NCBI GenBank assembly: GCA_024225395.1
Contig: JAAEMR010000177.1
Coordinates: forward strand, 1 to 64,000
DNA: 64,000 nt
From: Gammaproteobacteria bacterium
GTDB taxonomy: Bacteria > Pseudomonadota > Gammaproteobacteria > GCA-001735895
Direction of reading: 5' to 3'
Below the pieces are notes generated by a model, which saw only the letters and a program-made list of their open reading frames with translations, did not search any database and was not told the origin of the DNA. Positions 5,014-33,335 of the stretch are shown here, in pieces; positions within the stretch are counted from its first letter, which is position 1, and each line of letters begins with the position of its first letter. The translations under genes were made by a program, and so were the position numbers.

Positions 5014-8000
5014 TTGAGCTTTCGCCTTAAAACCATACTGGGCATTGCCCTGATTGAATCGGTACTGCTGCTGATACTGGTACTCAGCAGTCTGGATTTT
5101 CTGCGCACCTCAAATGAAGATCAGATCATACAGCGTGCATCCACTACTTCTAAACTGTTCGCGAGCGCCACCAAAGATGCCGTTCTAGCCACAGATCTGG
5201 CTACATTGGAGAGCTTTGTTGATGAAATACTGACAAATCCTGAAATTATCTATGTACGCATTCACAACAACGATATCGTGTTGGCACAGGGCGGCCAGCC
5301 CGAGCTTCTGAATTCACAACGAAGCTTTGATAACGCGCTGGATAGTGTTTCTGACGGTGTGTTTGATGTACAGGCTCAGGTTAAAGAAGCGGGCATCGTC
5401 TACGGAGCCATTGAGCTGGGCCTGTCCACACAGTCCATACAAGGTATGCTATCCAGTGCCAGGCAATGGGTCACCAGCATTGCTGTGCTTGAGGTACTGC
5501 TGGTGGCGGTCTTTTCTTTCTTATTCGGCACTTACTTAACCAGTTATTTACGAAAGTTACAGGTGGCTTCCAAAGTTATCGAAAAATCCGGTCCGGGCCA
5601 TCAGCTACAAATCACTGGCCATGATGAAATTGCAGATGTAGCCAATGCCTTTAATACCATGTCACTCAGCCTGCAACGTACATACCATGAACTAGAGGAG
5701 AGTCTTGAAGATCGCGAGCAGATGCTGGAAAAACTTGAACGCAATCGTCTTAAAAACCAGGCCATACTTTCAGCCTCTCTGGATGCCATCATCACCATCG
5801 ACGAACATGGCACTGTGATTGATTACAACGTGGCCGCTGAAAATATTTTTGGCTGGAAGCTGGACGAAATTGCCGGACAAAACATAGCGGATTTCATGAT
5901 TCCACATGAATTGCGTGAAACTCACAAGCAGGGAATGAAGGATTATCTTAATACCGGTGAAGGTCCTGTACTGGGAAACCGGATTCAGATAGAGGCCTTG
6001 CGCAAAGACGGGTTACGCTTTCCAGTTGAGGCTGCTGTCTGTCCTATCAATAGTCCGGAAGGTCCACTATTTACTGCCTTTCTTCGGGATTTAAGTCAAC
6101 ACATTGCTGACCAGACAGAGATGCGTCTAGCGTCCAGGGCATTCGAAACCAGCGAGGCCATGTTTATAACTGATGCGAATGCCCATATTATCCGTATCAA
6201 CCAGGCTTTTACGACGATTACTGGCTACCAGGAAGATGAAGTTCTAGGCCAAAACCCGAATTTTTTATCTTCAGGGCAGCATGATGAGGACTTCTTCAAT
6301 AAAATGTGGTCCTCTCTTCTTCAGCATGGCGAATGGAAAGGCGAGATTTTAAACCGTCGTAAGAATGGAGATATATTCCCCGAATACGCAAACATTTCGG
6401 TTGTAACTGACGAAGAAGGAACGATAACGCATTACGTGGCACACCTGGTTGACATCAGCAACCAAAAGTTAAAGGAACAACAACTTCGCCAGGCAAGCCA
6501 GCAAGCCAGACAGGCCGCAGAAGCAAAAAGCCGTTTCCTGGCCGTGATGAGCCATGAAATCCGCACCCCGATGAATGCGGTACTGGGTATTCTCGGGTTA
6601 TTAAGAGATACACCTTTGAACCAGGAACAACTGGAACTGGTAAAGACTGGCCGCGAATCAGGTGAAATGCTGCTTTCCATCATCAACGATATTCTGGATT
6701 TTTCCAAAATGGAAGCCGACAAGCTTGAACTAGAGCTCAACAGCTTTGACCTGCATCAGTTGCTGACCCTGAGCATGGATTTATTAAGACCAAAAGCAAA
6801 AGATAAATGTCTGGCAATGAATCTAATTCTCTGTGATGACTTACCCCGTTACGTTCATGGAGATTCTTGCCGCCTGCAGCAAGTCCTGGTCAACCTCATC
6901 AACAACGCAGTCAAATTCACTGAAAGCGGAAACATCACGTTACGCACATCGGTCTCTTCTTTATCGGATCACAGTTTTAAACTTAATTGTGAGGTACAGG
7001 ACACCGGGATTGGTATCGAACAGACCCGACACAAAGAGCTGTTTGAAGAGTTCTCCATGGTAGACCAGAGCCATTCTCGAGCCTATGAGGGCACAGGTCT
7101 GGGACTGGCTATCTGCAAGCGCCTGGTGAAGTTGATGGGCGGGCACTTAGGTGTTAAAAGTCATCTCGGAGTAGGTAGCAATTTCTATTTCAATGTCATA
7201 CTGTCAAAGACCAATGCCAATGAAATTGAAAACAACCAGGAACTTGAATCCTTACAATTACCAAGTCCGGATACACGAATTCTGTTAGCCGAAGACAATA
7301 TTGCAAACCAACGTGTAATCCGGGCCATTCTACGCAGCTCTGGACTTCAGGTAGACCTCGCAAGTAACGGTCAAGAGGCAGTTAAAGCTCTCAGGAGTCT
7401 TCCCTACGACATTGTTTTAATGGATATTTCAATGCCACTTATGGACGGTATGGAGGCAACACGCATCATTCGTCAAATGGACGGGGCAAACAGTCAGATT
7501 CCAATCATCGCATTAACTGCACATGCATTAAAAGGTGACAGGGAACGGTTTATCGCCAGTGGTATGAATGACTACCTTACCAAACCGATCGACAAGAATG
7601 CCACCCTCAGTTGCATCCATCGCTGGACGGGAGGAGCAGAAAACACACGCATTCAAACCACCATGAATGAGAAAACAGAATCCACAGATTCAACACAGGA
7701 CTCTCTATCCGATTATGTTGATGAAGCCGTGCTACAACAATTGGTACGCGATATCTCGGCAGACATCGTGCCGGAATTGCTGATCGGTTATATTGAAGAT
7801 ACAAGAGAACGCATTCTGAAAATTAGAGAAGCTCTAAAATCTACTGATGCTGAACTCCTCGAACGTGAAACACACACGCTCGGCAGCAGTGCAGGTGCTC
7901 ATGGTAATACACGCTTACTGAAAGAAGCCCGCAAGGTAGAACTACTGTGTCGTGATGGTGCAGTCAATCAGGCGATGCAACTGACCCCTGACCTGATCCT

Positions 8001-21738: not shown

Positions 21739-23046
21739 TCACAAGCCCTTAGCTGGAATTAAAATTCCCGCTTTGTTTTCAGTCTGGTTGCGCTTTTTAT
21801 ATCTTTGTATAGATAAATCATCACAGTGAATATCTGTTTTGTTACCGCTGATGATATCGGCCAGTAGGCGACCTGATCCAAAGCTCATTGTCCAGCCGAG
21901 GGTGCCGTGACCCGTGTTTAAATAAAGATTGGGAATATCGGTAGAGCCTATGACCGGTGTTCCATCTGGAGTCATGGGGCGTAAGCCTGCCCAAAATTCA
22001 TCCTGCTGCATATCAGCAGCATCGGGAAACAGGTCTGAAACAACATGCCTGATGGTCTTATGGCGTTTTTCATTCAGTTCCAGGTTATAGCCGTTGAGTT
22101 CAGCTGTTCCTGCGACTCGAATACGATCACCCAGCCTTGTAATGGCAACCTTATGTGTTTCATCCATGATGGTTGAGACCGGAGATGCGTCAGAATTGAT
22201 GACAGGAACGGTAATAGAATAGCCTTTAACAGGATATACAGGGCTGTTTATACCGATAGCTTTGAGTAACTTGCTGGAAAAACTACCCATCGCGACAACA
22301 TACTTATCTGCTTTATATTCCTGTTTATCGGTAACTACAGAGTGGATACGGTTATTTTCAAGGCGTAGAGATTTTATTTCAGTATTAAACTCAAACACTA
22401 CTCCAAGCTTTTTACAGCGTTCCACTAACTGGTCGGTAAATTTATAACAGTCACCTGTCTGATCCATCGGCAAGCGAAGCCCGGCAATAAACTTATGTTT
22501 TACCCTGGCTAACGCGGGTTCTGCATCAATACAGCCATTCACATGAAGTGACTCATAAGGCATGTTGAATTTATCCAGAATCGCCATGTCTTGTTGTGCA
22601 GCCAAAACCTGCTTCCGGGTTCTGAACAACTGCAAGGTTCCCTTGTTCTTATTGTCATAATCGAGATCGGTGTCGAGGTTCAGTTGTTTAAGAGATAGGC
22701 GACTGTACTCGGCAAGTCGTAACATTCTACTCTTGTTGGTTGAGTAACTCTTTTCATTACACTGCGATAACATTCGAGTAATGAATTTTAATTTTTCCCG
22801 GTCAGGTTTTGCATTAATGATGAGAGGGCTGTGTTTACTTAACATCCATTTAATGGCTTTAAAAGGTATTCCGGGCGCTGCCCAGGGTGCAGCATAACCC
22901 GGTGAAATTTGCCCGGCGTTGGCAAAACTGGTTTCCATTCCAGCAGAATCCTGTCTATCGATGACTCGTACCTGATGTCCCTGTAGTGCAAGGTAATAAG
23001 CCGTTGTCGTCCCGATAATTCCACTTCCCAAAACTAAAACTTGCAT
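21739..23046 (-). CDS. dadA: D-amino acid dehydrogenase small subunit
   Basis: 435 residues, close to E. coli DadA throughout: N-terminal FAD motif VLGSGIIGTTTAYYLALQGH, then ANAGQISPGYAAPWAAPG, GTLQLFRTRKQV, DQTGDCYKFTDQL and LNTGHGTLGWTMSFGSG. It oxidises D-amino acids (classically D-alanine) to 2-oxo acids with electrons to the quinone pool. An Lrp-type regulator is divergently transcribed 126 bp away, as in many dad loci. No alanine racemase is adjacent. Confidence 0.95.
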   Translation of the reverse strand: MQVLVLGSGIIGTTTAYYLALQGHQVRVIDRQDSAGMETSFANAGQISPGYAAPWAAPGIPFKAIKWMLSKHSPLIINAKPDREKLKFITRMLSQCNEKSYSTNKSRMLRLAEYSRLSLKQLNLDTDLDYDNKNKGTLQLFRTRKQVLAAQQDMAILDKFNMPYESLHVNGCIDAEPALARVKHKFIAGLRLPMDQTGDCYKFTDQLVERCKKLGVVFEFNTEIKSLRLENNRIHSVVTDKQEYKADKYVVAMGSFSSKLLKAIGINSPVYPVKGYSITVPVINSDASPVSTIMDETHKVAITRLGDRIRVAGTAELNGYNLELNEKRHKTIRHVVSDLFPDAADMQQDEFWAGLRPMTPDGTPVIGSTDIPNLYLNTGHGTLGWTMSFGSGRLLADIISGNKTDIHCDDLSIQRYKKRNQTENKAGILIPAKGL

Positions 23047-23172
23047 GCTGTTTTCTCATTAGTAGATGACTGTAAAGATTTGAATAATAGAGTAGTGGCG
23101 AAAATAAATGTTGCTGAAATTATGGTAATGCCAGAAAATAAACTTTTAAAAAGACTAATTACAGGAAATATT

Positions 23173-23661
23173 ATGGATGGCGATAAAGTAAAACCAAGAG
23201 TGCTGGATCGCATCGATAGAAAAATTTTGTTTTACCTGCAAACGAATGGTCGTCTGTCGTATGTCGAATTAGCCGACAAAGTGGGGTTAAGTACTTCTCC
23301 CTGCCTTGAGCGGGTAAAACGTCTCGAAAGAGATGGTTTTATTATTGGATACCAGACAAAACTTGCTGCTGATAAACTACAGGCTGGATTACTGGTATTT
23401 GTGGAAATTAGTCTGAGTTATAAATCGGACAATGTATTTGATGAATTTCGAAAAGCGGTGAAACAGTGGCCTGAAATACAGGAGTGTCACCTGGTCTCAG
23501 GTGATTTTGACTACCTGTTGAAAATTCGTATCGCAGATATGCAATCCTACCGAGAGTTATTAGGGGAGATAGTGCATACCCTGCCGGGCGTTAGAGATTC
23601 ACGCACGCTGGTGGCCATGGAAACGGTGAAAGACAGTAGCGAAATTGCGATCAGAATATAA
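23173..23661 (+). CDS. Lrp/AsnC-family regulator
   Basis: 162 residues from the ATG at 23173 (AGGA 6 bp upstream); upstream in-frame ATGs give a non-homologous N-terminus. An AsnC-type helix-turn-helix (DRIDRKILFYLQTNGRLSYV, LADKVGLSTSPCLERVKRL) followed by the RAM ligand-binding domain. Divergent from dadA, so it probably activates dadA in response to alanine or another amino acid. Confidence 0.93.
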   Translation: MDGDKVKPRVLDRIDRKILFYLQTNGRLSYVELADKVGLSTSPCLERVKRLERDGFIIGYQTKLAADKLQAGLLVFVEISLSYKSDNVFDEFRKAVKQWPEIQECHLVSGDFDYLLKIRIADMQSYRELLGEIVHTLPGVRDSRTLVAMETVKDSSEIAIRI

Positions 23662-23851: not shown

Positions 23852-25168
23852 CTAATTTCTAATTTTTCTCAGGCCATTCAGCATTTCATCGGCCAGTACA
23901 TCGACTTCTTTACTGGTCATTGCTGTTGATAGCGCAAAGGTGCAGGTATTGATCATCATAATGCCATGATCAAACAGGTAGTCCAGTAGTGTTTTAAGTT
24001 GCCCGGTTTCGCGTTCATTCCTGGTCAGCTCACGATAATTTCGCGGAGCTTGAGCTTTTAAATGAACCCGCAATAAAGAACCCGCACCGGTTACACATGC
24101 AGGAATATCTGCAATCTGTATTGACTGTGAAATCACTTCGAGAGCATAAGTGCTCAGCTTGTTAAGTCTATCTACAGCGGATCTGTCGAATAATTCCATC
24201 GCAGCTAAGCCCGCCGTCATGGTCATAGGGTTTGCTGAAAATGTTCCAGAGTGAGGGAATAAAACGTTATCAGCCAGTGGATCCATCACATCCATGACTT
24301 CATGTCGCCCGATAATAGCGCCAACTGGGAATCCACCACCAATCATCTTACCCATCGCTGTCAGGTCAGGAGAAACGGAGTAATTATCCTGTGCTCCTCC
24401 ATATTCCGTTCGCAGGGTGATGACTTCATCGAAGATTAATAATGCAGCATTGTCTGTTGTCCATTGACGTAAAGCCTGAATAAATTCATCGGTGGCTGGA
24501 ATCAAACCCACTCGATGTGGCAGTAAATCAACCAGAACACAGGCCAGGTCATGTTTATGTTGATCCAGGATATTAATAGCTTTTTCGGCATCGTTGAAGG
24601 GAATGACAATGACTTCCTGAAGGGCAGAAGCAGGGGTTCCAAAAGCTACAGGTACACTAGAGGGTTTATTTTCATTCCCCCAGTTTCCTGCTTTAGAGGT
24701 CTGGCTTACTTCAGCAAAGTCATACTGTCCGTGATATGCGCCTTCAACTTTAGCTATTTTAGGTCGCCCGGTAAAAGCTCTGGCTGCTTTTAAGCAACTC
24801 ATCACCGCTTCGGTACCGGAGTTAACGAAACGAATTTTTTCAAAACTTTGATTACGACTGAGTAGATGTTCGGCATACAGAATTTCAATTTCAGTTGCCA
24901 GCGTAAAAGCCGTGCCCTTGTGCAGTTGCTCGGTCACCTTACTGATGATTTTTGGATGAGAGTGCCCATGAATCAGTGACGCCATGTTGTTGGCAAAGTC
25001 TATTCGTTTATTGCCTTCAATATCGGTGACGTAACAGCCTTGTGCAAAATCTGCATAAAAGGGATAAGGTTTGCGCAATATCGTATTTCGGCTGCATCCA
25101 CCCGGCATGATTTTTTTAGCTCTTTGGTAAAGAGCCTCACTTTTGGATGAAGGTTTTGAAGCTGACAT
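23852..25168 (-). CDS. Class III aminotransferase, probably acting on beta-amino acids
   Basis: 438 residues of the glutamate-1-semialdehyde aminomutase-like group. PLP features: SGTEAVMSCLKAARA, the FDEVITLR aspartate, and the Schiff-base lysine in GKMIGGG. In GGCSRNT an Arg (R27) takes the place where GSA aminomutase has GVNSPV; beta-phenylalanine aminotransferases have a comparable Ser-Arg there that binds the substrate carboxylate. It is the last gene of the kamA operon, 10 bp after the CoA-transferase B subunit. Expected reaction: beta-amino acid to 3-oxo acid. That substrate is inference; hemL itself is unlikely given the motif and context. Confidence 0.72.
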   Translation of the reverse strand: MSASKPSSKSEALYQRAKKIMPGGCSRNTILRKPYPFYADFAQGCYVTDIEGNKRIDFANNMASLIHGHSHPKIISKVTEQLHKGTAFTLATEIEILYAEHLLSRNQSFEKIRFVNSGTEAVMSCLKAARAFTGRPKIAKVEGAYHGQYDFAEVSQTSKAGNWGNENKPSSVPVAFGTPASALQEVIVIPFNDAEKAINILDQHKHDLACVLVDLLPHRVGLIPATDEFIQALRQWTTDNAALLIFDEVITLRTEYGGAQDNYSVSPDLTAMGKMIGGGFPVGAIIGRHEVMDVMDPLADNVLFPHSGTFSANPMTMTAGLAAMELFDRSAVDRLNKLSTYALEVISQSIQIADIPACVTGAGSLLRVHLKAQAPRNYRELTRNERETGQLKTLLDYLFDHGIMMINTCTFALSTAMTSKEVDVLADEMLNGLRKIRN

Positions 25169-25178
25169 TTGATGAATC

Positions 25179-25832
25179 TCAGGTTTTATTGATTAACTTT
25201 GCATCCGTGCGTTGTTGCACATAGTCAAACTCTATATCCGGAGCCAGCTCGATAACTTCGAATCCCTGTCGGGTAATATTTATAACCGCTAGATCGGTAT
25301 ATACCCGGCTAACAACTGCCTGACCCGTTAAGGGGAAATCGCATTTCTTTAACAATTTAGCTGAACCATCCCGCGTGTTATGCTGGGTGATAACATAAAT
25401 GGTTTTAACACCGGCAACCAGGTCCATCGCACCGCCAACGGCGGGAATGGCATCAGCTGCACCGGTAGACCAGTTTGCAAGGTCCCCATTTTCTGCAACC
25501 TGCATGGCTCCTAAAACGCAAATATCAATGTGATGACCTCGAATCATTGCGAAGCTATCGGCATGATGAAAATAAGCTGCACCGGGAATGGCTGATACTG
25601 GTTTTTTTCCTGCATTGATTAACTCGGGATCCTGCTTGTCCGGTTCTGGCGTTGACCCCATGCCCAGTAATCCATTTTCAGTGTGATAAATAACTTCTCT
25701 TCCTTCAGGAACATACTTTGCTACCTTTTCAGGAATGCCTATGCCGAGGTTTACGTAACACCCATCAGGAATATCCACGGCGGCTCGTTGCGCCATTTGC
25801 TCACGATTCCAGCCTGTTATTATGTCATTCAT
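25179..25832 (-). CDS. 3-oxoacid CoA-transferase, subunit B
   Basis: 217 residues. The catalytic glutamate is in TENGLLGMG (ENGxxGxG motif of family I CoA-transferases); AVGGAMDLVAGVKTIYVI and FPLTGQAVVSRVYTDLAV are conserved. PcaJ/ScoB/AtoA-type. It overlaps the A subunit gene by 4 bp. It transfers CoA from succinyl-CoA or acetyl-CoA to a 3-oxo acid; the operon suggests that acid is made by the downstream aminotransferase. Confidence 0.9.
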   Translation of the reverse strand: MNDIITGWNREQMAQRAAVDIPDGCYVNLGIGIPEKVAKYVPEGREVIYHTENGLLGMGSTPEPDKQDPELINAGKKPVSAIPGAAYFHHADSFAMIRGHHIDICVLGAMQVAENGDLANWSTGAADAIPAVGGAMDLVAGVKTIYVITQHNTRDGSAKLLKKCDFPLTGQAVVSRVYTDLAVINITRQGFEVIELAPDIEFDYVQQRTDAKLINKT

Positions 25833-26542
25833 GATGGATACTTAACTCCTTCAGCAACCAGTTTAGATTCCAGGGCAGGGTCATGAACCGTAACAATCCG
25901 GTCCACAAAAATACCCGGAGTGATAACTATCTCAGGATCAATATCGCCGGCCTTTACTAAATTTGCTGTTTGAACAATGGTGGTTGTAGCAGCCATGGCC
26001 ATGACCGGCGCAAAATTACGTGCTGTTTTGTTAAATGTCAGGTTTCCATATCGATCTGCCTGATGGCTTTTTAGTAATGCAAAATCAGCTTTAAGACTGT
26101 ACTCCAATACATAATCCCGTCCATCAATTGTTCGTACCTCCTTTCCTTCGATTAATGGAGTACCGATGGTAGTCGCCGTGAAAAAAGCAGGTATTCCCGC
26201 TCCACCTGCTCGAATTCTTTCTGCCAGCGTTCCCTGCGGAACCAGTTCGAGTTCAATCAAACCTGCACGGTATAGATCAGGAAAAACTGTTGAGTTAGCG
26301 GTGCGCGGAAATGAGCATATCATTTTACTCACCTGCCTGTTTTCGATCAGTGCTGCCAGACCTACGTGACCACTACCGGTATTGTTATTGATCACCGTCA
26401 GGTTGCCCGGGCCTTTATCAATCAACGCATGCAAAAGTTCTATCGGGCTTCCTGCTTCACCAAATCCACCGACCATGACGGTAGAACCATCAACTATGTC
26501 AGCTACTGCGGCAGCTGGAGATTCAACCTGTTTATTTATCAT
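25829..26542 (-). CDS. 3-oxoacid CoA-transferase, subunit A
   Basis: 237 residues. GGFGEAGSPIELLHALIDKG and GAGIPAFFTATTIGTPL are typical of PcaI/ScoA/AtoD-type subunits, and the protein ends just as subunit B begins. Second gene of the four-gene operon, 27 bp after kamA. Together A and B form the usual heteromer. Confidence 0.9.
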   Translation of the reverse strand: MINKQVESPAAAVADIVDGSTVMVGGFGEAGSPIELLHALIDKGPGNLTVINNNTGSGHVGLAALIENRQVSKMICSFPRTANSTVFPDLYRAGLIELELVPQGTLAERIRAGGAGIPAFFTATTIGTPLIEGKEVRTIDGRDYVLEYSLKADFALLKSHQADRYGNLTFNKTARNFAPVMAMAATTTIVQTANLVKAGDIDPEIVITPGIFVDRIVTVHDPALESKLVAEGVKYPS

Positions 26543-26569
26543 TTACTTCTCTTTAACAATTCCAGTTAT

Positions 26570-28177
26570 TTATGTGTGTTGTTTTAATGCCTGAGCAAGA
26601 TTGAGCTCAATTTCTTTCAGTTCATGTTCGTAGAAATACTGATCACCTTCAAAAGGCTGTAACAGGTTGATCTTATTTTGAGTTTCATCCCATTTAGCCA
26701 GAAATACCTGATCCATCCATTCCATATTTCTGGCTTCAGTGAACTGTAGTGCAAAATACTTTTTTCCACTGACATAAGAATAACCCAGAATAGCGAGCTT
26801 TCCCGCTGAAATGGTCATGGATAAATGACGAGAAGGCCTGTTGATTGAAGCCAGTGAGCGGTAAATTTTATTAAAAATTCGCTGGATATCAGCCAGTGGT
26901 GCCGCGTAATAATGGTGCTCACCGGTAGGGCGAGCTGCATACATAGAATGAAAGCCAATGCTCATCATGCCCAGCAAGGTAGCGAGATCAATCCAGTTCT
27001 GGGCTGACTTGTCTACATCTACTTTTCCTGATTGATCGGTAAACAGACTGATGTGATTCATGATGGGGCTTTGACTGCGTATGTTTACACCGTGATCCTG
27101 TAAACGGCGAATAGCCGCAATTGTACTCGGGTTAAGTAATTCTCTGGGTGTTGAGAAATGAGCCATCCAGGCGAGCTGGATGCCGTTATCACGGATAGTA
27201 TCGAATAGTTCCAGCATTTTGTCGTACTTAGGGCTCAGGATCATTTCCGGCTGGAAAGTTAATGATCGAGATGCTAGTCGCACGTTTTTGACATGCAGTA
27301 ATTCAGGATCCTCAATGAGTGGCATAACATATTCTGCCAGTCTGTTGACTGGCATATATCCACCGTCACCACCGGTAATTAATAAATCGGTGACTTCATG
27401 ATGCTTTTTTAAGTATCTATGCAATTGATCGATGTCTTTCTGGATGAACATATCTTTATCGCCACGAACCTGTGCATGACGAAAACAATAGGTACAAAAA
27501 GAAAAACAGTTCTGGGTTGTTTTATCGAATATTAACTGGCATTGAGGGTATTTATGCTGACTTCCATCGAGAAATTCGACTTCATCTTGATCGTTAACAA
27601 ACCAGGCTTTATTCAGCTGCTGATTGCCATCATGTGGATTTGTCTGCTCCATATAAACGGATGCAATTTCTGCGCGTTCTTCGGCTGATTGAGCTTCACT
27701 GTATTTTTGAACAGTGTCATTTTCGATCATATCGGGCTGGGCAAAACAAAGTTGAAATACCGAATCGTTTTTGAAGTCATCCCAGTTAATACTGTTCAGG
27801 GTATGCCGTGTAGCTAGAAAACTATATACCTCGACAAAAAGTTCCCGATCGTTCATGTGATCGAGTTCTATGCCATTTTGTTTCAGGTTTTCAATGACAC
27901 GATGAAAACCTTTTAACCCGGTATAATTATCCCGCTCATTAAAAATAAATGGTTTAGTTTCAAGCAATCCTGAATGTTGTGGAAATGATGCATGTAAACG
28001 GCTCAGTAACCCGATCGGCAGTAAATTTTCCTGCTGTATAACTTGTCGAGTTACTGCTGAATATTGATAACGATTAAACATCATCTCAACGTCAGACGGC
28101 TGAATAACAAGGTGGTTCTTTTTTGTAGGTGCAGAGGGGTTTAGTGTTAACAGATCGTTTGTTTCTGCATTAAGCAT
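26570..28177 (-). CDS. KamA-family radical SAM amino acid 2,3-aminomutase-like protein
   Basis: 535 residues. Radical-SAM cluster C224-x3-C228-x2-C231 (NCFSFCTYCFRHAQ) followed by LLITGGDGG. Near the C-terminus, ISAGKLAILGYS may hold the PLP lysine, corresponding to the GGGGK stretch of lysine 2,3-aminomutase. It has a long N-terminal region (about 210 residues before the cluster) and lacks the classic GGGGK loop, so it is a divergent subgroup. Known KamA members move the amino group from C2 to C3 of lysine, glutamate or arginine. First gene of an operon with CoA-transferase and class III aminotransferase. Substrate unknown. Confidence 0.82.
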   Translation of the reverse strand: MLNAETNDLLTLNPSAPTKKNHLVIQPSDVEMMFNRYQYSAVTRQVIQQENLLPIGLLSRLHASFPQHSGLLETKPFIFNERDNYTGLKGFHRVIENLKQNGIELDHMNDRELFVEVYSFLATRHTLNSINWDDFKNDSVFQLCFAQPDMIENDTVQKYSEAQSAEERAEIASVYMEQTNPHDGNQQLNKAWFVNDQDEVEFLDGSQHKYPQCQLIFDKTTQNCFSFCTYCFRHAQVRGDKDMFIQKDIDQLHRYLKKHHEVTDLLITGGDGGYMPVNRLAEYVMPLIEDPELLHVKNVRLASRSLTFQPEMILSPKYDKMLELFDTIRDNGIQLAWMAHFSTPRELLNPSTIAAIRRLQDHGVNIRSQSPIMNHISLFTDQSGKVDVDKSAQNWIDLATLLGMMSIGFHSMYAARPTGEHHYYAAPLADIQRIFNKIYRSLASINRPSRHLSMTISAGKLAILGYSYVSGKKYFALQFTEARNMEWMDQVFLAKWDETQNKINLLQPFEGDQYFYEHELKEIELNLAQALKQHT

Positions 28178-28421: not shown

Positions 28422-30179
28422 ATGGATTATACCGATACGATAGATACCTGTGAATTTGTTGACAGTTGTGTAGAACCTGAAAAAGATACCTCTTTATTAC
28501 TTCAATATCTTATTCAGATTCAGTACAGGTACAACTTTGTGCCTGAAGATGCAATTTCTCAATTACAGCACTCGCTTGATCTGGATGTTGCACATATTAA
28601 ATCTGTCATTTCCTTTTATAGTTTTCTGAATTCCTCTTTTCAGGGGCATTATCGAATACTGTTCAGCGATAATATTACCGACCGCATGCTGGGCAACCAG
28701 TCGTTGTATGAACAGTTAAAAACCTCATTAAAAAATCATAAGGTTGATATTGGATTTACCTCCTGCACGGGTTTCTGTGATCAGGGCCCCGCCATGCTGG
28801 TGAATGGAATGGCAATCAATAAACTCGATTCAAAAAGAATAACTCAAATTGCTGATCTGATTCAAAATAATCAACCGCTGGAACTCTGGCCGGAAGGTTT
28901 GTTTGTAAAAGAAGAGAATATTCAAAGGTCTGATATTCAGTTCAATTCGAAAGCGGGTGATGGAAAAGGAATTGAAGCGGCACTTGAAAATGGAAGTGAT
29001 GCAATTTTAAAAATACTGAATGATTCTGGTTTAAGAGGTCGAGGTGGTGCAGGTTTTTATACGGCTAAAAAATGGCAATTCTGCAAACAGGCGATTTCAA
29101 ATCAACATTATGTGGTTTGTAATGCCGATGAAGGAGAGCCTGGCACCTTTAAAGATCGTGTTTTACTATCAACCGATGCTCACTCTGTCATCGAAGGTAT
29201 GACTATTTGTGCTGCCGTTATCGGTGCTACAAAGGGGCTTATCTATTTACGTGGTGAGTATCGCTTTTTGGTCGACAAAATCAATGAAGTTTTACAGAAG
29301 CGGCGAACGGAAGGTTTATTAGGTCAAAATATCCTGGGTCATCAAGGTTTTAATTTCGATATCGAAATACACCTGGGGGCAGGGGCTTATATTTGTGGTG
29401 AAGAATCGGCTTTAATTGAATCACTGGAAGGCAAACGTGGAATCCCCAGGGTTCGCCCACCTTTTCCGGTGGTTGACGGTTATAAAAACAAACCTACCGT
29501 GGTGAATAATGTCGAAACCTTCTGGTCAGTAAGTCGAATTATCGTAAATGGCAGTCACTGGTTTACCCGCAAAGGAACACCACAATCTACAGGTACACGG
29601 TTACTCAGTATCAGTGGTGACTGTGAACGTCCTGGCATTTATGAATATCCATTTGGAACTACATTGACGGAAATATTAAAAGACTGTGGAGGCTCTGATG
29701 CCCAGGCTGTTCAAATGGCGGGTGCTGCGGGTACCACTGTTGTTCCGTCTGGTTTTGATCGAGCCATGAGCAACGAAGACCTGTCGACGGGTGGCTCATT
29801 CATGGTGTTAGGCCCACAACGAAACCTGATGGATTTATTACAAAACTTTGCGCAATTTTTTAAACATGAAAGCTGTGGATTTTGCACACCCTGTCGGGTA
29901 GGAACATCCATCATTGCCGATGTAATTCAGCGTTTTAAAAATGCTCAGGGTTGTGAACACGATTTAAAACAGCTACGAGATGTTTGCGGGTTAATGAATA
30001 TCAGTTGCTTTTGTGGCCTTGGCTGTACAGTGCCCACTGTTTTTCTGGATGCACTGAATCAACATAGCCAAATGTTTAAAGATCTAATGAAAACGGATTC
30101 ATCAACCCCCTGTTTTAACCTGGAAGAATCTGTCAGTGAATTTAAACAAATCACAAATCCTTCTGGACGAGGGCTTTAG
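28422..30179 (+). CDS. hoxF: NAD-reducing hydrogenase diaphorase subunit HoxF
   Basis: 585 residues, one chain with a NuoE-like N-terminal part (1-150) and a NuoF-like part. FMN/NAD motifs GRGGAGFYTAKKW, NADEGEPGTFKDR and GAYICGEESALIES; [4Fe-4S] ligands in SCGFCTPCRVGT with a distal Cys (NISCFCGLG). In the N-terminal part only the second cysteine pair (SCTGFC) is obvious; the first pair of NuoE is replaced. It oxidises or reduces NAD(H) and passes electrons via HoxU to HoxYH. First gene of hoxFUYHW; no separate hoxE. Confidence 0.95.
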   Translation: MDYTDTIDTCEFVDSCVEPEKDTSLLLQYLIQIQYRYNFVPEDAISQLQHSLDLDVAHIKSVISFYSFLNSSFQGHYRILFSDNITDRMLGNQSLYEQLKTSLKNHKVDIGFTSCTGFCDQGPAMLVNGMAINKLDSKRITQIADLIQNNQPLELWPEGLFVKEENIQRSDIQFNSKAGDGKGIEAALENGSDAILKILNDSGLRGRGGAGFYTAKKWQFCKQAISNQHYVVCNADEGEPGTFKDRVLLSTDAHSVIEGMTICAAVIGATKGLIYLRGEYRFLVDKINEVLQKRRTEGLLGQNILGHQGFNFDIEIHLGAGAYICGEESALIESLEGKRGIPRVRPPFPVVDGYKNKPTVVNNVETFWSVSRIIVNGSHWFTRKGTPQSTGTRLLSISGDCERPGIYEYPFGTTLTEILKDCGGSDAQAVQMAGAAGTTVVPSGFDRAMSNEDLSTGGSFMVLGPQRNLMDLLQNFAQFFKHESCGFCTPCRVGTSIIADVIQRFKNAQGCEHDLKQLRDVCGLMNISCFCGLGCTVPTVFLDALNQHSQMFKDLMKTDSSTPCFNLEESVSEFKQITNPSGRGL

Positions 30180-30181
30180 TT

Positions 30182-30874
30182 ATGTCTTTTTTCAACATTG
30201 ATGGTCAGCAAATAGAATTCAAACAGGGCCAGACTATCATGCAGGCGGCTCAGGATGCCGGTGTATATATTCCGCATCTTTGTTTTCACCCGGATTTTAA
30301 GGCACATGGAAGTTGTCGTGTTTGTATTGTGCAGATTAAAGGTTTGTATAGAACGGCTTGTACCACACCGGTCGTTGAGTCGATGGAAGTTATTAACATC
30401 AATGAGGAAGTTCAGCAGCATCGCCTGCAGTTACTGGAAATGTTATTTATTGAAGGCAATCATGTTTGCCCATCCTGCGAGAAAAGTGGTAGCTGTACAT
30501 TACAGTCAGTTGCTGAATATTGCGGATTGTTATCGCCTTCTTTAACGTTCAGATATCCCGATAAAAAAGTGGATGCGAGTCATGCTGATTATCTGCTTGA
30601 TTTCAATCGATGTATCTTGTGTGAACTTTGTGTTCGTGCGAGTAAAGAAGTCGATAAGAAGTCGGTGTTTGCAATTACAGGTCGTGGTCTGGATGCCAGG
30701 CTGATGGTGAATTCAACCGATGGAAAGCTGGTGAACAGTACATTTGATAAACTGGATCGAGCGGCTTCAATTTGTCCGGTGGGTGTTATTCTGCCAAAGC
30801 ATCAGGGGTTTAAAACGCCGATTGGTCAAAGAAAATTTGATATTAAAGAAATCAATAAAAGGGAACAGGACTGA
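30182..30874 (+). CDS. hoxU: NAD-reducing hydrogenase diaphorase subunit HoxU
   Basis: 230 residues, like the N-terminus of complex I NuoG. A plant-type [2Fe-2S] domain (CFHPDFKAHGSCRVC then a distal Cys), a His-Cys3 cluster site (HVCPSCEKSGSC) and a [4Fe-4S] pair (CILCELC with SICPVG). It relays electrons between HoxF and HoxY. It starts 2 bp after hoxF and overlaps hoxY by one base. Confidence 0.95.
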   Translation: MSFFNIDGQQIEFKQGQTIMQAAQDAGVYIPHLCFHPDFKAHGSCRVCIVQIKGLYRTACTTPVVESMEVININEEVQQHRLQLLEMLFIEGNHVCPSCEKSGSCTLQSVAEYCGLLSPSLTFRYPDKKVDASHADYLLDFNRCILCELCVRASKEVDKKSVFAITGRGLDARLMVNSTDGKLVNSTFDKLDRAASICPVGVILPKHQGFKTPIGQRKFDIKEINKREQD

Positions 30875-31413
30875 TGGCTGACAAAATAAAAATTGCCACT
30901 GTTTCACTTGCAGGCTGTTTTGGTTGTCACATGTCAATTCTCGACATTGATGAAAAAATTATCGACCTGGTTGAGCTGGTTGAATTTGACCGCTCACCCT
31001 TAACGGATATCAAACAGGTTTCTGAATGTGATATCGGCATTATAGAAGGTGCCGTTGCCAATGCCGAAAATGTAGAGGTGTTGAAAGATTTTCGCAAGCA
31101 ATGCAAAACGTTGGTTGCAATGGGTGCCTGTGCATTGAGTGGAGGAATTCCAGCCATGCGCAACCACTTTACGCTGGAACAGTGTTTACGGGAATCTTAT
31201 GTTAATGGAACGGGTTTAGAAAATTCATGTATCCCCGATGATGTAGAACTACCGATGTTATTGAACAAGGTTTATCCGGTTCATCAGGTGGTTAAGGTGG
31301 ATTATGTTATGCCTGGCTGCCCACCTCCTGCTGATATGATCTGGAATTTATTAACGGCTTTACTGGAAGGGCGTAAACCTGAGTTTTCTGCTGAGGACAT
31401 TCGATATGACTAG
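30874..31413 (+). CDS. hoxY: [NiFe] hydrogenase small subunit HoxY
   Basis: 179 residues. Proximal [4Fe-4S] cysteines in AGCFGCHMS, MGACALSGG and MPGCPPPAD. Short, without Tat signal or additional clusters, as expected of the cytoplasmic group 3d enzyme. Overlaps hoxH by 8 bp. Confidence 0.95.
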   Translation: MADKIKIATVSLAGCFGCHMSILDIDEKIIDLVELVEFDRSPLTDIKQVSECDIGIIEGAVANAENVEVLKDFRKQCKTLVAMGACALSGGIPAMRNHFTLEQCLRESYVNGTGLENSCIPDDVELPMLLNKVYPVHQVVKVDYVMPGCPPPADMIWNLLTALLEGRKPEFSAEDIRYD

Positions 31414-32839
31414 AAGAATAAGCGTAGACCCCATTAGTCGTGTTGAAGGTCATGGCAAGATCACGCTACAACAAGATGAAAACAATGAAATTACTCAGGC
31501 ACGTTTAAATATCGTTGAGTTTCGAGGCTTTGAAAAGTTTATCCAGGGACGGCCATACTGGGAAGTTCCTGTGCTGGTGCAACGTCTGTGTGGTATTTGT
31601 CCGGTGAGCCATCATCTGGCAGCGGCTAAAGCAACTGATATGTTAATCGGAGTCAAACAGCTCAGTCCTACGGCTGAAAAAATGCGTCGCCTTATGCATT
31701 TCGGGCAGATTCTGCAATCTCATGCATTACATTTTTTCCACTTAAGTTCACCCGATTTGTTATTCGGTTATGACGATGAAGTGAGACATCGAAATATTGT
31801 AGGTCTCATCAAAGATTTTCCTGAGCTGGCCAAACAGGGTGTGTTATTACGCAAATACGGTCAGGAAGTTATACGACTAACATCAGGAAAAAGAATTCAT
31901 GGAACCGGTGCTATCCCGGGCGGTATCAATAAAGTACTGAGCACAGATGAAAGAGACTTTCTGTTAAAGGATATCGATCAAATGATTGAATGGGCATTAT
32001 CAGCGGTGGGCGTGTTTAAGACTATCTATTATGAGCATCCGTCCTATCATCAACAGTTTGCCATGATCACCAGTAAGATGATGAGCCTGGTCACAGCGGA
32101 TGGAGCACTTGAACTCTATGATGGTGGATTGAGGGTCAAAACGCCGGATAATAATGTAATCTTTGATCATCAGGATCCAGCGAATTATCTTGACCTAATC
32201 AATGAACATGTTGAACCCTGGAGTTATATGAAATTTCCATTCCTGAAATCATTGGGTGTGGAGCAGGGCTGGTATCGTGTCGGACCACTGGCGAGGGTGA
32301 ATAATTGTGATTTTATTAATACCGACCTGGCGGAACAGGAAAGAAAAGAGTTCAAGCTATTAAATGAAGGGCTGCCTGTTCAATCGACACTGGCTTACCA
32401 TTGGGCTCGACTGATTGAATTATTGCATTGCGTAGAATCTATTCAACAACTGTTACATGATCCAGACCTGACAGCGGGAGAGTTGACGCTTAAGGGGCAT
32501 ATGCAAAACACTGGTATCGGAGTCATAGAAGCGCCCAGGGGAACCTTAATTCATCACTATGAAATCAATGAGGAAGGGCTGATCACAAAGGCCAATTTAA
32601 TCGTATCCACCACGCATAATAATCAGGCGATGAACGAATCTATCCGCCATGTTGCCAGTCAATATCTCAGTGGAAATGAAATCACTGAGCCGCTGCTCAA
32701 TCAGCTTGAAGTCGCGGTCAGAGCCTATGATCCCTGTTTATCCTGTGCTACACATGCCCTCGGGAAAATGCCACTGGAAGTTACCCTGATAGATAAAGAA
32801 GGAAAATTATTAGATCGAAAATACAAGTCTACCCAGTAA
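31406..32839 (+). CDS. hoxH: [NiFe] hydrogenase large subunit HoxH
   Basis: 477 residues. Nickel ligands C62-x2-C65 ([11 protein letters not shown]) and C444-x2-C447 with H450 ([10 protein letters not shown]). A 27-residue C-terminal extension after H450 would be removed by the endopeptidase encoded next. Group 3d bidirectional, NAD-linked type by gene context. The hyp maturation genes are not in the window. Confidence 0.96.
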
Positions 32840-32840
32840 C

Positions 32841-33335
32841 ATGCCTGCACCCGTACTATTGTTTGCCTATGGTAATATTTCTCGCGGGGATGATGCTCTG
32901 GCTCCTTTACTGCTGGAAAGAATTCAATGTTCAGGAGCTACTTCGGTAGCCGACCATCCTATCAAGTTTTTATCCGACTATCTGATGCAGATTGAACATG
33001 TGACCGATATGCATGGCTGTGAACGAATCCTGCTTATTGATGCCGACCAATCTATTGATGAGCCGTTCAGGTTTTATAAGGTTAAAGAACGACAGGAAAC
33101 CAGCTATACCACGCATGGAATGACGCCATCAACTCTGTTACACACCTTCAAACATACCTATAAACAGTCCGCACCTGCAACATCTATGTTAGCGGTACGA
33201 GGGTATAATTTTGAATTAGGACAGGGGCTTTCTACAGAGGCTCAAAACAATTTACTGGTGGCTGAAGAATTTTTGAACCAGATACTATTCGCTAAAGAAT
33301 TTTCTTTATGGGATGAAAGGTTAGCTGTGATATAA
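32841..33335 (+). CDS. hoxW: Hydrogenase maturation endopeptidase HoxW
   Basis: 164 residues. LLFAYGNISRGDDALAPLL is the conserved N-terminal motif of the HycI/HoxW proteases, with the Ni-sensing acidic residues (D in RGDD, D-A-D at LLIDADQ) and a His in the middle region. It processes the C-terminus of HoxH after Ni insertion. Starts 1 bp after hoxH. Confidence 0.88.
   Translation: MPAPVLLFAYGNISRGDDALAPLLLERIQCSGATSVADHPIKFLSDYLMQIEHVTDMHGCERILLIDADQSIDEPFRFYKVKERQETSYTTHGMTPSTLLHTFKHTYKQSAPATSMLAVRGYNFELGQGLSTEAQNNLLVAEEFLNQILFAKEFSLWDERLAVI

Follow-up and report, generated by a model that had tools for sequence, protein, structure and literature searches.

2-Aminoadipate is one of the standard intermediates in the breakdown of lysine, and every fate of it known to us passes through 2-oxoadipate. 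These fates share the steps from lysine to 2-aminoadipate with a route proposed here, the later steps of which we assign to an operon of four genes on the minus strand (23852-28177) of a 64,000-nt stretch of gammaproteobacterial DNA (contig JAAEMR010000177.1; the window). The operon encodes a radical S-adenosylmethionine (SAM), pyridoxal 5'-phosphate (PLP) enzyme resembling the lysine 2,3-aminomutase KamA (here called KAM), the two subunits of a coenzyme A (CoA)-transferase (ctA and ctB), and a class III aminotransferase. We predict, with a probability of about 0.7, that it forms the lower half of lysine catabolism via 2-aminoadipate, and infer all of the substrates and reactions from gene content, gene order, conservation, family scores, active-site columns and co-location. 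The described fates of 2-aminoadipate, as outlined in PMC7286885, lead through 2-oxoadipate to glutaryl-CoA in mammals or, by way of the DUF1338 protein HglS, to D-2-hydroxyglutarate in Pseudomonas and plants; the proposed route differs in that the amino group would be moved to carbon 3 first, with neither loss of CO2 nor use of O2.

The closest described relative of KAM is the lysine 2,3-aminomutase of Clostridium subterminale (KamA/AblA; structure 2a5h), with which it shares the fold, the CxxxCxxC motif, the PLP-binding lysine and the equivalent of Arg134, but KAM is ~120 residues longer and both lysine-binding aspartates are replaced. Glutamate 2,3-aminomutase is a member of the same family that has also lost these aspartates, with Lys and Asn in their place (PMC3965090, which gives these residues without position numbers); it shares with KAM a basic residue at one of the two positions, whereas KAM has Arg and Ser/Thr and different gene partners. 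The aminotransferase retains the carboxylate arginine of the Sphaerobacter thermophilus omega-transaminase 6K8H, an enzyme of beta-amino acids, although its own proposed substrate is a dicarboxylic beta-amino acid. The CoA-transferase, and the thiolase found in related operons, belong to families shared with the lower half of the beta-ketoadipate pathway (PcaIJ/CatIJ and PcaF) and with PaaJ, and in one relative these genes form a joint cluster; in contrast to the beta-ketoadipate pathway, 3-oxoadipate would here arise from an amino acid, without ring-cleaving oxygenases. Neither the kind of enzyme nor any of the three partner families (aminotransferase, CoA-transferase and thiolase) is new; it is their combination and the proposed substrate that appear to be undescribed in the open-access literature. 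No description of this route was found in the open-access literature searched, outside which most subscription journals lie, and the sole match to 'beta-aminoadipic' was a cited title on lysine 6-aminotransferase in a paper that is otherwise on alpha-aminoadipate (PMC9854754).

The proposed route runs from lysine through 2-aminoadipate, 3-aminoadipate, 3-oxoadipate and 3-oxoadipyl-CoA to succinyl-CoA and acetyl-CoA. Lysine would be processed either via saccharopine, by lysine-ketoglutarate reductase (LKR) and saccharopine dehydrogenase (SDH), or by a lysine-6-dehydrogenase-like protein, and piperideine-6-carboxylate dehydrogenase would then yield 2-aminoadipate. KAM would then produce 3-aminoadipate (beta-aminoadipate) from L-2-aminoadipate by shifting its amino group from the alpha carbon to carbon 3: the [4Fe-4S] cluster would cleave SAM to generate a 5'-deoxyadenosyl radical, PLP on Lys460 would form an external aldimine with 2-aminoadipate, hydrogen would be taken from C3, and the amino group would migrate via an azacyclopropylcarbinyl radical, the route given for known radical aminomutases in PMC9105233, with Arg233 holding the alpha-carboxylate and Arg416 the distal carboxylate. 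The class III aminotransferase would convert 3-aminoadipate to 3-oxoadipate (beta-ketoadipate), the CoA-transferase pair would charge this with CoA, most simply from succinyl-CoA, and a PcaF/PaaJ-type thiolase would split 3-oxoadipyl-CoA into succinyl-CoA and acetyl-CoA. The thiolase would come from the operon itself in most relatives; in the host genome its best candidate is paaJ, part of a phenylacetate cluster located on different contigs. As the succinyl-CoA released by thiolysis would be the next CoA donor, the net reaction would be 3-oxoadipate + CoA to succinate + acetyl-CoA.

The substrate class of KAM is suggested by its active-site columns, which were read from a profile alignment to 2a5h of 81 KAM sequences, comprising that of the window and those of 80 loci of relatives (given L-numbers here). 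The alignment pairs Lys460 with Lys337, Arg233 with Arg134, Arg416 with Asp293 and Ser453 with Asp330, where we take Lys337 to be the PLP lysine of 2a5h and Asp293 and Asp330 to be its lysine-binding pair, and assign Arg134 its role on the same assumption. The three cysteines of the CxxxCxxC motif, Arg233, Arg416 and Lys460 are invariant (81/81), and column 453 holds Ser in 51 sequences and Thr in 30. Among 13 rows of EpmB and other KamA proteins, Asp occupies column 416 in 11 rows and Arg in the other two, and 11 rows have an acidic residue, Glu or Asp, in column 453; the 22 rows other than KAM in the KamA-family tree described below all have Lys in the PLP-lysine column too. With both lysine-binding aspartates replaced in all 81 sequences, a lysine 2,3-aminomutase role for KAM is unlikely, and these columns are most simply read as fitting a substrate that has a distal carboxylate. 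An acidic substrate is plausible because glutamate 2,3-aminomutase likewise lacks the lysine-binding aspartates, and the columns alone would fit glutamate and 2-aminoadipate alike.

KAM is called KamA-like on the grounds of its fold and these columns, because it falls short of the cut-off of the KamA family model TIGR00238 (64.1 bits, cut-off 199.2). Its scores on six KamA-family models lie between 42 and 67 bits, each far below the respective cut-off, among them those for lysine 2,3-aminomutase (60.7 bits, cut-off 525.4), glutamate 2,3-aminomutase (TIGR04368; 47.6 bits, cut-off 650) and EpmB (TIGR03821; 42.3 bits, cut-off 369.3), and the radical-SAM Pfam score is 20.0, under the cut-off of 29.5. 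The single solved relative found by sequence is 2a5h, and this is also the best Protein Data Bank (PDB) match of the AlphaFold model (predicted local distance difference test 88.2, predicted template modelling score 0.89), with Z 27.6 and a root-mean-square deviation of 3.0 over 322 residues at 18% identity, the next row having Z 11.4. In a KamA-family tree of 40 rows the 18 KAM sequences are united at 100/100, separately from EpmB, and the host genome has its own EpmB-like protein (L025), which is placed in another group; long branches are flagged in this tree, so its deep joins are unsure. The possibility, left open in an earlier note on this DNA, that KAM is an EpmB or a lysine 2,3-aminomutase of the proven type is thus countered on both sides, by the tree for the former and by the replaced aspartates for the latter. 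The KAM of L031, from a genome bin (G009) of the same family as the window's organism, groups with Alphaproteobacteria, which suggests either that the gene was transferred or that the contig is misplaced in this bin.

A sister group of KamA-like proteins, ~450 residues in length and with a motif of the type CHSYCTFCFRWAQ, occurs in other genomes and on plasmids (L005-L007, L130, L132, L134, L136, L142 and L143). By identity (33-39%) alone, members are present in 30 of the 321 genomes drawn from the window's class and in 19 of 345 Bacteroidia. Plasmid members often carry the annotation lysine 2,3-aminomutase, and the neighbours of the group vary, including asparagine synthase-like, threonine synthase-like and non-ribosomal peptide synthetase genes.

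The aminotransferase matches the Pfam class III family, and its best NCBI model is HemL (TIGR00713), the cut-off of which it does not pass (334.6 bits, cut-off 527.3). The host genome encodes a separate HemL that does (625.9 bits), which tells against the operon enzyme being the glutamate-1-semialdehyde aminomutase that the earlier note had allowed for. Its closest solved structures by sequence are 6K8H (385.6 bits) and ForI, and it is also related to beta-phenylalanine and other beta-transaminases. The Ser-Arg pair that the same note reported at residues 26-27 is present; Arg27 aligns without gaps with residue 36 of 6K8H, its column is Arg in 61/61 rows of operon aminotransferases (some genomes being counted twice), and it faces a gap in the host's own HemL. 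According to PMC10589169, R36 of 6K8H 'might be' the carboxylate-binding arginine, and Arg27 would accordingly correspond to the N-terminal carboxylate-binding arginine of beta-amino acid transaminases. At L031 a divergent aminotransferase gene (6482-7810 of that locus) follows the thiolase gene, and none lies between ctB and the thiolase gene.

The CoA-transferase and thiolase point to 3-oxoadipate. Both subunits exceed the cut-offs of their beta-ketoadipate-type families, ctA with 346.9 bits on TIGR02429 (pcaI_scoA_fam, cut-off 128.5) and ctB with 295.7 bits on TIGR02428 (pcaJ_scoB_fam, cut-off 243.55). In a tree covering subunit A only, with ctB being typed by its partner, the operon ctA joins six plasmid rows at 100/100, apart from two other CoA-transferases that are the only outgroup rows. 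Four of the six are from pca/cat clusters, beside pcaF, catBC, catC or pcaD, and two are from other settings; ctA would thus be of the PcaI/CatI type, as it groups with enzymes of pca/cat clusters. The thiolases in the operons of L030 and L031 and that of L036 score 663.1, 682.1 and 692.0 bits, respectively, on the pcaF model TIGR02430 (cut-off 597). Genome-wide searches were made in 50 carriers out of the 80 (near-duplicates and short contigs having been dropped) and in 14 control genomes; a match over this cut-off is held by 46 of the carriers and by none of the controls, a count that is not independent, because the thiolase gene usually lies in the operon.

The operon of L036, whose KAM is 80% identical to that of the window, lies between paaX/E/D/C/A-like and paaJ/I/G/Y/Z-like genes. 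PaaA (505.8 bits, cut-off 280), PaaX (261.2 bits, just under 264.55) and the thiolase were scored, and the others assigned by sequence reading. The PaaJ thiolase of the phenylacetate pathway acts on 3-oxoadipyl-CoA. In the window no thiolase gene is present among the four operon genes or adjoining them, and the host's best candidate is a paaJ beside paa-like genes, split by two contig ends into pieces scoring 362.5 and 379.4 bits on TIGR02430, neither of which alone is over 597. Of the sequence of aminomutation, transamination, CoA transfer and thiolysis put forward in the earlier note, the logic therefore stands, since relatives' operons hold a thiolase gene, and only its last member is missing from the window. 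Taken with piperideine-6-carboxylate dehydrogenase, considered next, the thiolase, the beta-ketoadipate-type CoA-transferase and the paa cluster point to a C6 dicarboxylate.

From 3-oxoadipate the operon can be traced backwards, by transamination to 3-aminoadipate and by 2,3-aminomutation to 2-aminoadipate. Genes for converting lysine to 2-aminoadipate lie within 10 kb in 11 of the 80 loci (L047, L053, L067, L070, L079, L083, L093, L099, L103, L105 and L113). Piperideine-6-carboxylate dehydrogenase accounts for nine of these genes, in eight loci, all on the strand of KAM and within 7 kb. Five of the nine were scored directly (800.4-818.4 bits, cut-off 730), three more, from L067, L105 and the second copy of L053, exceed the cut-off in the genome searches, and that of L070 was recognised by a profile of our own. 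About 0.18 loci with this gene within 10 kb would be expected by chance, compared with the eight observed, which represent at least five separate lineages; the estimate is a rough Poisson one, from 23 over-cut-off dehydrogenases in 50 genomes of ~4.2 Mb each. Saccharopine dehydrogenase is found by a profile of our own in L093, L099, L103, L105 and L113; those of L099 and L105 match PF16653 and PF03435, and that of L099 scores 287.8 bits against saccharopine reductase 1e5l. Short SDH-like proteins are encoded in L047, L079 and L083, and the LKR of L093 scores 266.4 bits against alpha-aminoadipic semialdehyde synthase 8dda. Genome-wide, PF16653 is present in 38/50 carriers and 2/14 controls, a domain that covers other enzymes too.

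In the host genome a piperideine-6-carboxylate dehydrogenase gene (804.9 bits) on contig C122 lies directly behind a gene for a 357-residue SDH-like protein, with a divergent Lrp/AsnC-type regulator gene and, behind, an apparent branched-chain-type ATP-binding cassette transporter. The best solved relative of the 357-residue protein is 3abi (63.3 bits), which we take to be the Pyrococcus lysine dehydrogenase, and as this identity is our assumption, lysine-6-dehydrogenase is a guess for the host protein. On the Tistrella mobilis plasmid pTM2 (L144, 1-6391) a CoA-transferase pair 69% identical to that of the operon lies near an HglS-type DUF1338 gene, a GcvA-type regulator gene and a gene resembling that for piperideine-6-carboxylate dehydrogenase (62% to the host's); KAM is absent from this 10.7 kb stretch.

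The relatives come from a scan of one genome per species, in which the best 80 of 176 loci were kept; genes were counted by profile search, using models built from the same 80 loci and score thresholds of our own choosing. ctA is present in 68 loci, ctB in 66, the aminotransferase in 66 and the thiolase in 54, all four core genes in 62, and all five genes including the thiolase in 52. The conservation of the neighbourhood, which the earlier note had proposed as a check, is borne out, to a degree beyond chance: in all 62 full-core loci the core genes lie on one strand within 6 kb, and in 61 of them in the window's order. The thiolase gene is on the same strand, near the aminotransferase gene, in 51 loci. 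Six of the 18 loci without a full core reach a contig end (L051, L059, L076, L081, L084 and L098). A fusion of KAM with the CoA-transferase in the actinobacterial L091 was dropped as a candidate, as the reading frame crosses a stretch of N; in L088, L096 and L106 a ctA-bearing open frame starts inside KAM, in a different frame.

Judged by record titles and tree labels, carriers include Pseudomonadota, Myxococcota, Thermodesulfobacteriota, Krumholzibacteriota, Sumerlaeota and Verrucomicrobiota, as well as Bacteroidota, Balneolales, Acidobacteria, Cloacimonadota, Planctomycetota and others, many of them metagenome bins. The KAM clade is rare: of 321 genomes drawn evenly from the window's class only the host and G009 have it (E <= 1e-60), and of 345 Bacteroidia drawn likewise only the genome around which sampling was centred. 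A GcvA-like LysR regulator gene is present in 23/80 loci, mostly adjoining KAM and divergent from it; that of L030 (7760-8722) scores 265.7 bits, cut-off 288, and carriers in Shewanella, Photobacterium and Pseudoalteromonas have a different LysR gene in its place. A gene of ~130-145 codons that reads as a hotdog-fold thioesterase adjoins the operon in L037, L038, L051 and L065.

In the window the four genes are as tightly packed as the earlier note described, with 27 bp between KAM and ctA, a 4-bp overlap of ctA and ctB, and 10 bp between ctB and the aminotransferase gene; all four open reading frames are complete, with ATG starts and zero internal stops. The coordinates are shown in Table 1.

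Table 1. Genes and predicted functional residues of the operon, with positions in the window.
Feature	Position	Strand	Proposed role or basis
KAM, KamA-like radical-SAM/PLP enzyme, 535 aa	26570..28177	-	Proposed L-2-aminoadipate 2,3-aminomutase
CoA-transferase subunit A (ctA), PcaI/CatI-type, 237 aa	25829..26542	-	Proposed succinyl-CoA:3-oxoadipate CoA-transferase
CoA-transferase subunit B (ctB), PcaJ/CatJ-type by partner, 217 aa	25179..25832	-	TIGR02428 score
Class III PLP aminotransferase, beta-transaminase group, 438 aa	23852..25168	-	Proposed 3-aminoadipate aminotransferase
CxxxCxxC motif CFSFCTYC, KAM residues 224-231, radical-SAM [4Fe-4S] ligands	27485..27508	-	Conserved Cys
KAM Arg416, equivalent to Asp293 of lysine 2,3-aminomutase; proposed distal-carboxylate contact	26930..26932	-	Alignment to 2a5h
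KAM Ser453, equivalent to Asp330 of lysine 2,3-aminomutase	26819..26821	-	Alignment to 2a5h
KAM Lys460, equivalent to PLP lysine Lys337 of lysine 2,3-aminomutase	26798..26800	-	Alignment to 2a5h
Aminotransferase Arg27, equivalent to Arg36 of 6K8H; proposed carboxylate-binding residue	25088..25090	-	Alignment

The region 21739-23661, which adjoins the operon, holds a divergent lrp gene (222.4 bits, just under the cut-off of 233) and a gene whose product, a D-amino acid dehydrogenase of the DadA type, scores 645.2 bits (cut-off 383); among the loci surveyed this pair is found beside the operon elsewhere only in the nearest relative (L029/L035). On the other side (28422-33335) are divergent genes that, by sequence reading, resemble those of a bidirectional Hox-type [NiFe] hydrogenase and a maturation protease.

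Several observations weigh against a route from lysine through 2-aminoadipate, the main gap being that the searches for lysine-side genes found nothing in ~20 of the 50 carriers, including every Shewanella and Colwelliaceae genome tested. This count was made by eye, from the dehydrogenase over cut-off, PF16653 at 200 bits or more, or the short type of 65-79 bits, and one of the 20 misses the dehydrogenase cut-off narrowly (723.3 versus 730). In such carriers 2-aminoadipate must arise otherwise, or the substrate differs. Piperideine-6-carboxylate dehydrogenase is over cut-off in only 22/50 carriers, compared with 46/321 genomes of the window's class and 1/14 controls, in lineages not matched to those of the carriers. 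It is not over cut-off in 4/4 Shewanella and 3/3 Colwelliaceae tested, in Photobacterium obscurum, in Pseudoalteromonas denitrificans, or in Motiliproteus sp. SC1-56, one of two Motiliproteus; the genome of L093 gives no match to the dehydrogenase model although LKR and SDH are present, and another oxidising enzyme would be needed there. The thiolase and lysine-side genes of the host sit on contigs other than that of the operon, and four of the 50 carriers have no thiolase over the pcaF cut-off (L053, L083, L084 and L091). KAM is apart from the other genes in 10/80 loci, all of Colwellia or Litorilituus, where it is accompanied by a LysR gene and the others either lie at a distance of 8-11 kb (L061, L066) or are missing from the stretch; L083 and L087 have KAM and the aminotransferase with no CoA-transferase genes in the stretch. 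Finally, Arg at the Asp293 column is also present in the sister KamA-like group (9/9 examined) and in two other KamA-like proteins, so this Arg does not by itself indicate 2-aminoadipate.

Carriers without lysine-side genes would be accounted for if KAM were a glutamate 2,3-aminomutase, with beta-glutamate passing to 3-oxoglutarate, by loss of CO2 to acetoacetate, and on to acetoacetyl-CoA, as in the example offered by the earlier note, and Arg at the Asp293 column suits glutamate as well as 2-aminoadipate. We consider this unlikely, given that KAM scores far below the cut-off of the glutamate 2,3-aminomutase model, that the thiolase is of the 3-oxoadipyl-CoA and not the acetoacetyl-CoA type, that ctA groups with PcaI/CatI-type rows and not with the row sampled beside an acetyl-CoA C-acetyltransferase, and that the linkage to piperideine-6-carboxylate and saccharopine dehydrogenases would be left unexplained. 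A role for KAM as a lysine 2,3-aminomutase, with beta-lysine yielding 6-amino-3-oxohexanoate and then 4-aminobutyryl-CoA and acetyl-CoA, would fit its closest solved structure and the lysine 2,3-aminomutase annotation of many plasmid relatives, but is very improbable, as both substrate-binding aspartates are lost throughout, the score on the corresponding model is far too low, and the linked genes, where present, attack lysine at the epsilon-nitrogen. Lysine, glutamate, arginine and leucine, the substrates that had been suggested for assay, thus find no support, and L-2-aminoadipate fits better.

Kinship of the aminotransferase with ForI, beta-phenylalanine and other beta-transaminases, and a sister-group KamA-like gene that adjoins a non-ribosomal peptide synthetase gene in Mycetohabitans, would be in keeping with some other alpha-amino acid (aromatic, branched-chain or arginine) or with a biosynthetic role such as the supply of a beta-amino acid. 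Since the CoA-transferase and thiolase are a catabolic pair, and the partners recurring across lineages are that pair, the aminotransferase, LysR regulators and lysine-side genes, this is rather improbable. That the genes are chance neighbours, or that KAM is no aminomutase, could be argued from its sub-threshold radical-SAM Pfam score and from the ten Colwellia and Litorilituus loci, and yet the order kept in 61/80 loci over many phyla, the fold match to lysine 2,3-aminomutase and the invariant Cys, Arg and PLP-Lys columns make this a highly improbable account.

We therefore favour the degradation of lysine via 2-aminoadipate and 3-oxoadipate. It is reasonably probable that this constitutes a hitherto undescribed, oxygen-independent pathway, in which a new radical-SAM enzyme, an L-2-aminoadipate 2,3-aminomutase, connects the beta-ketoadipate pathway with the saccharopine or lysine-6-dehydrogenase route, and that the operon is distributed over more than ten phyla, in both aerobes and anaerobes, partly through horizontal transfer. 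If so, it would represent a third fate of 2-aminoadipate, joining two large catabolic networks, and would extend the few 2,3-aminomutases known by one with a new substrate, such that 'lysine 2,3-aminomutase' annotations would need a second look. For carriers such as Bacteroidales, Cloacimonadota and Desulfocapsaceae it would provide a means of using lysine without O2.

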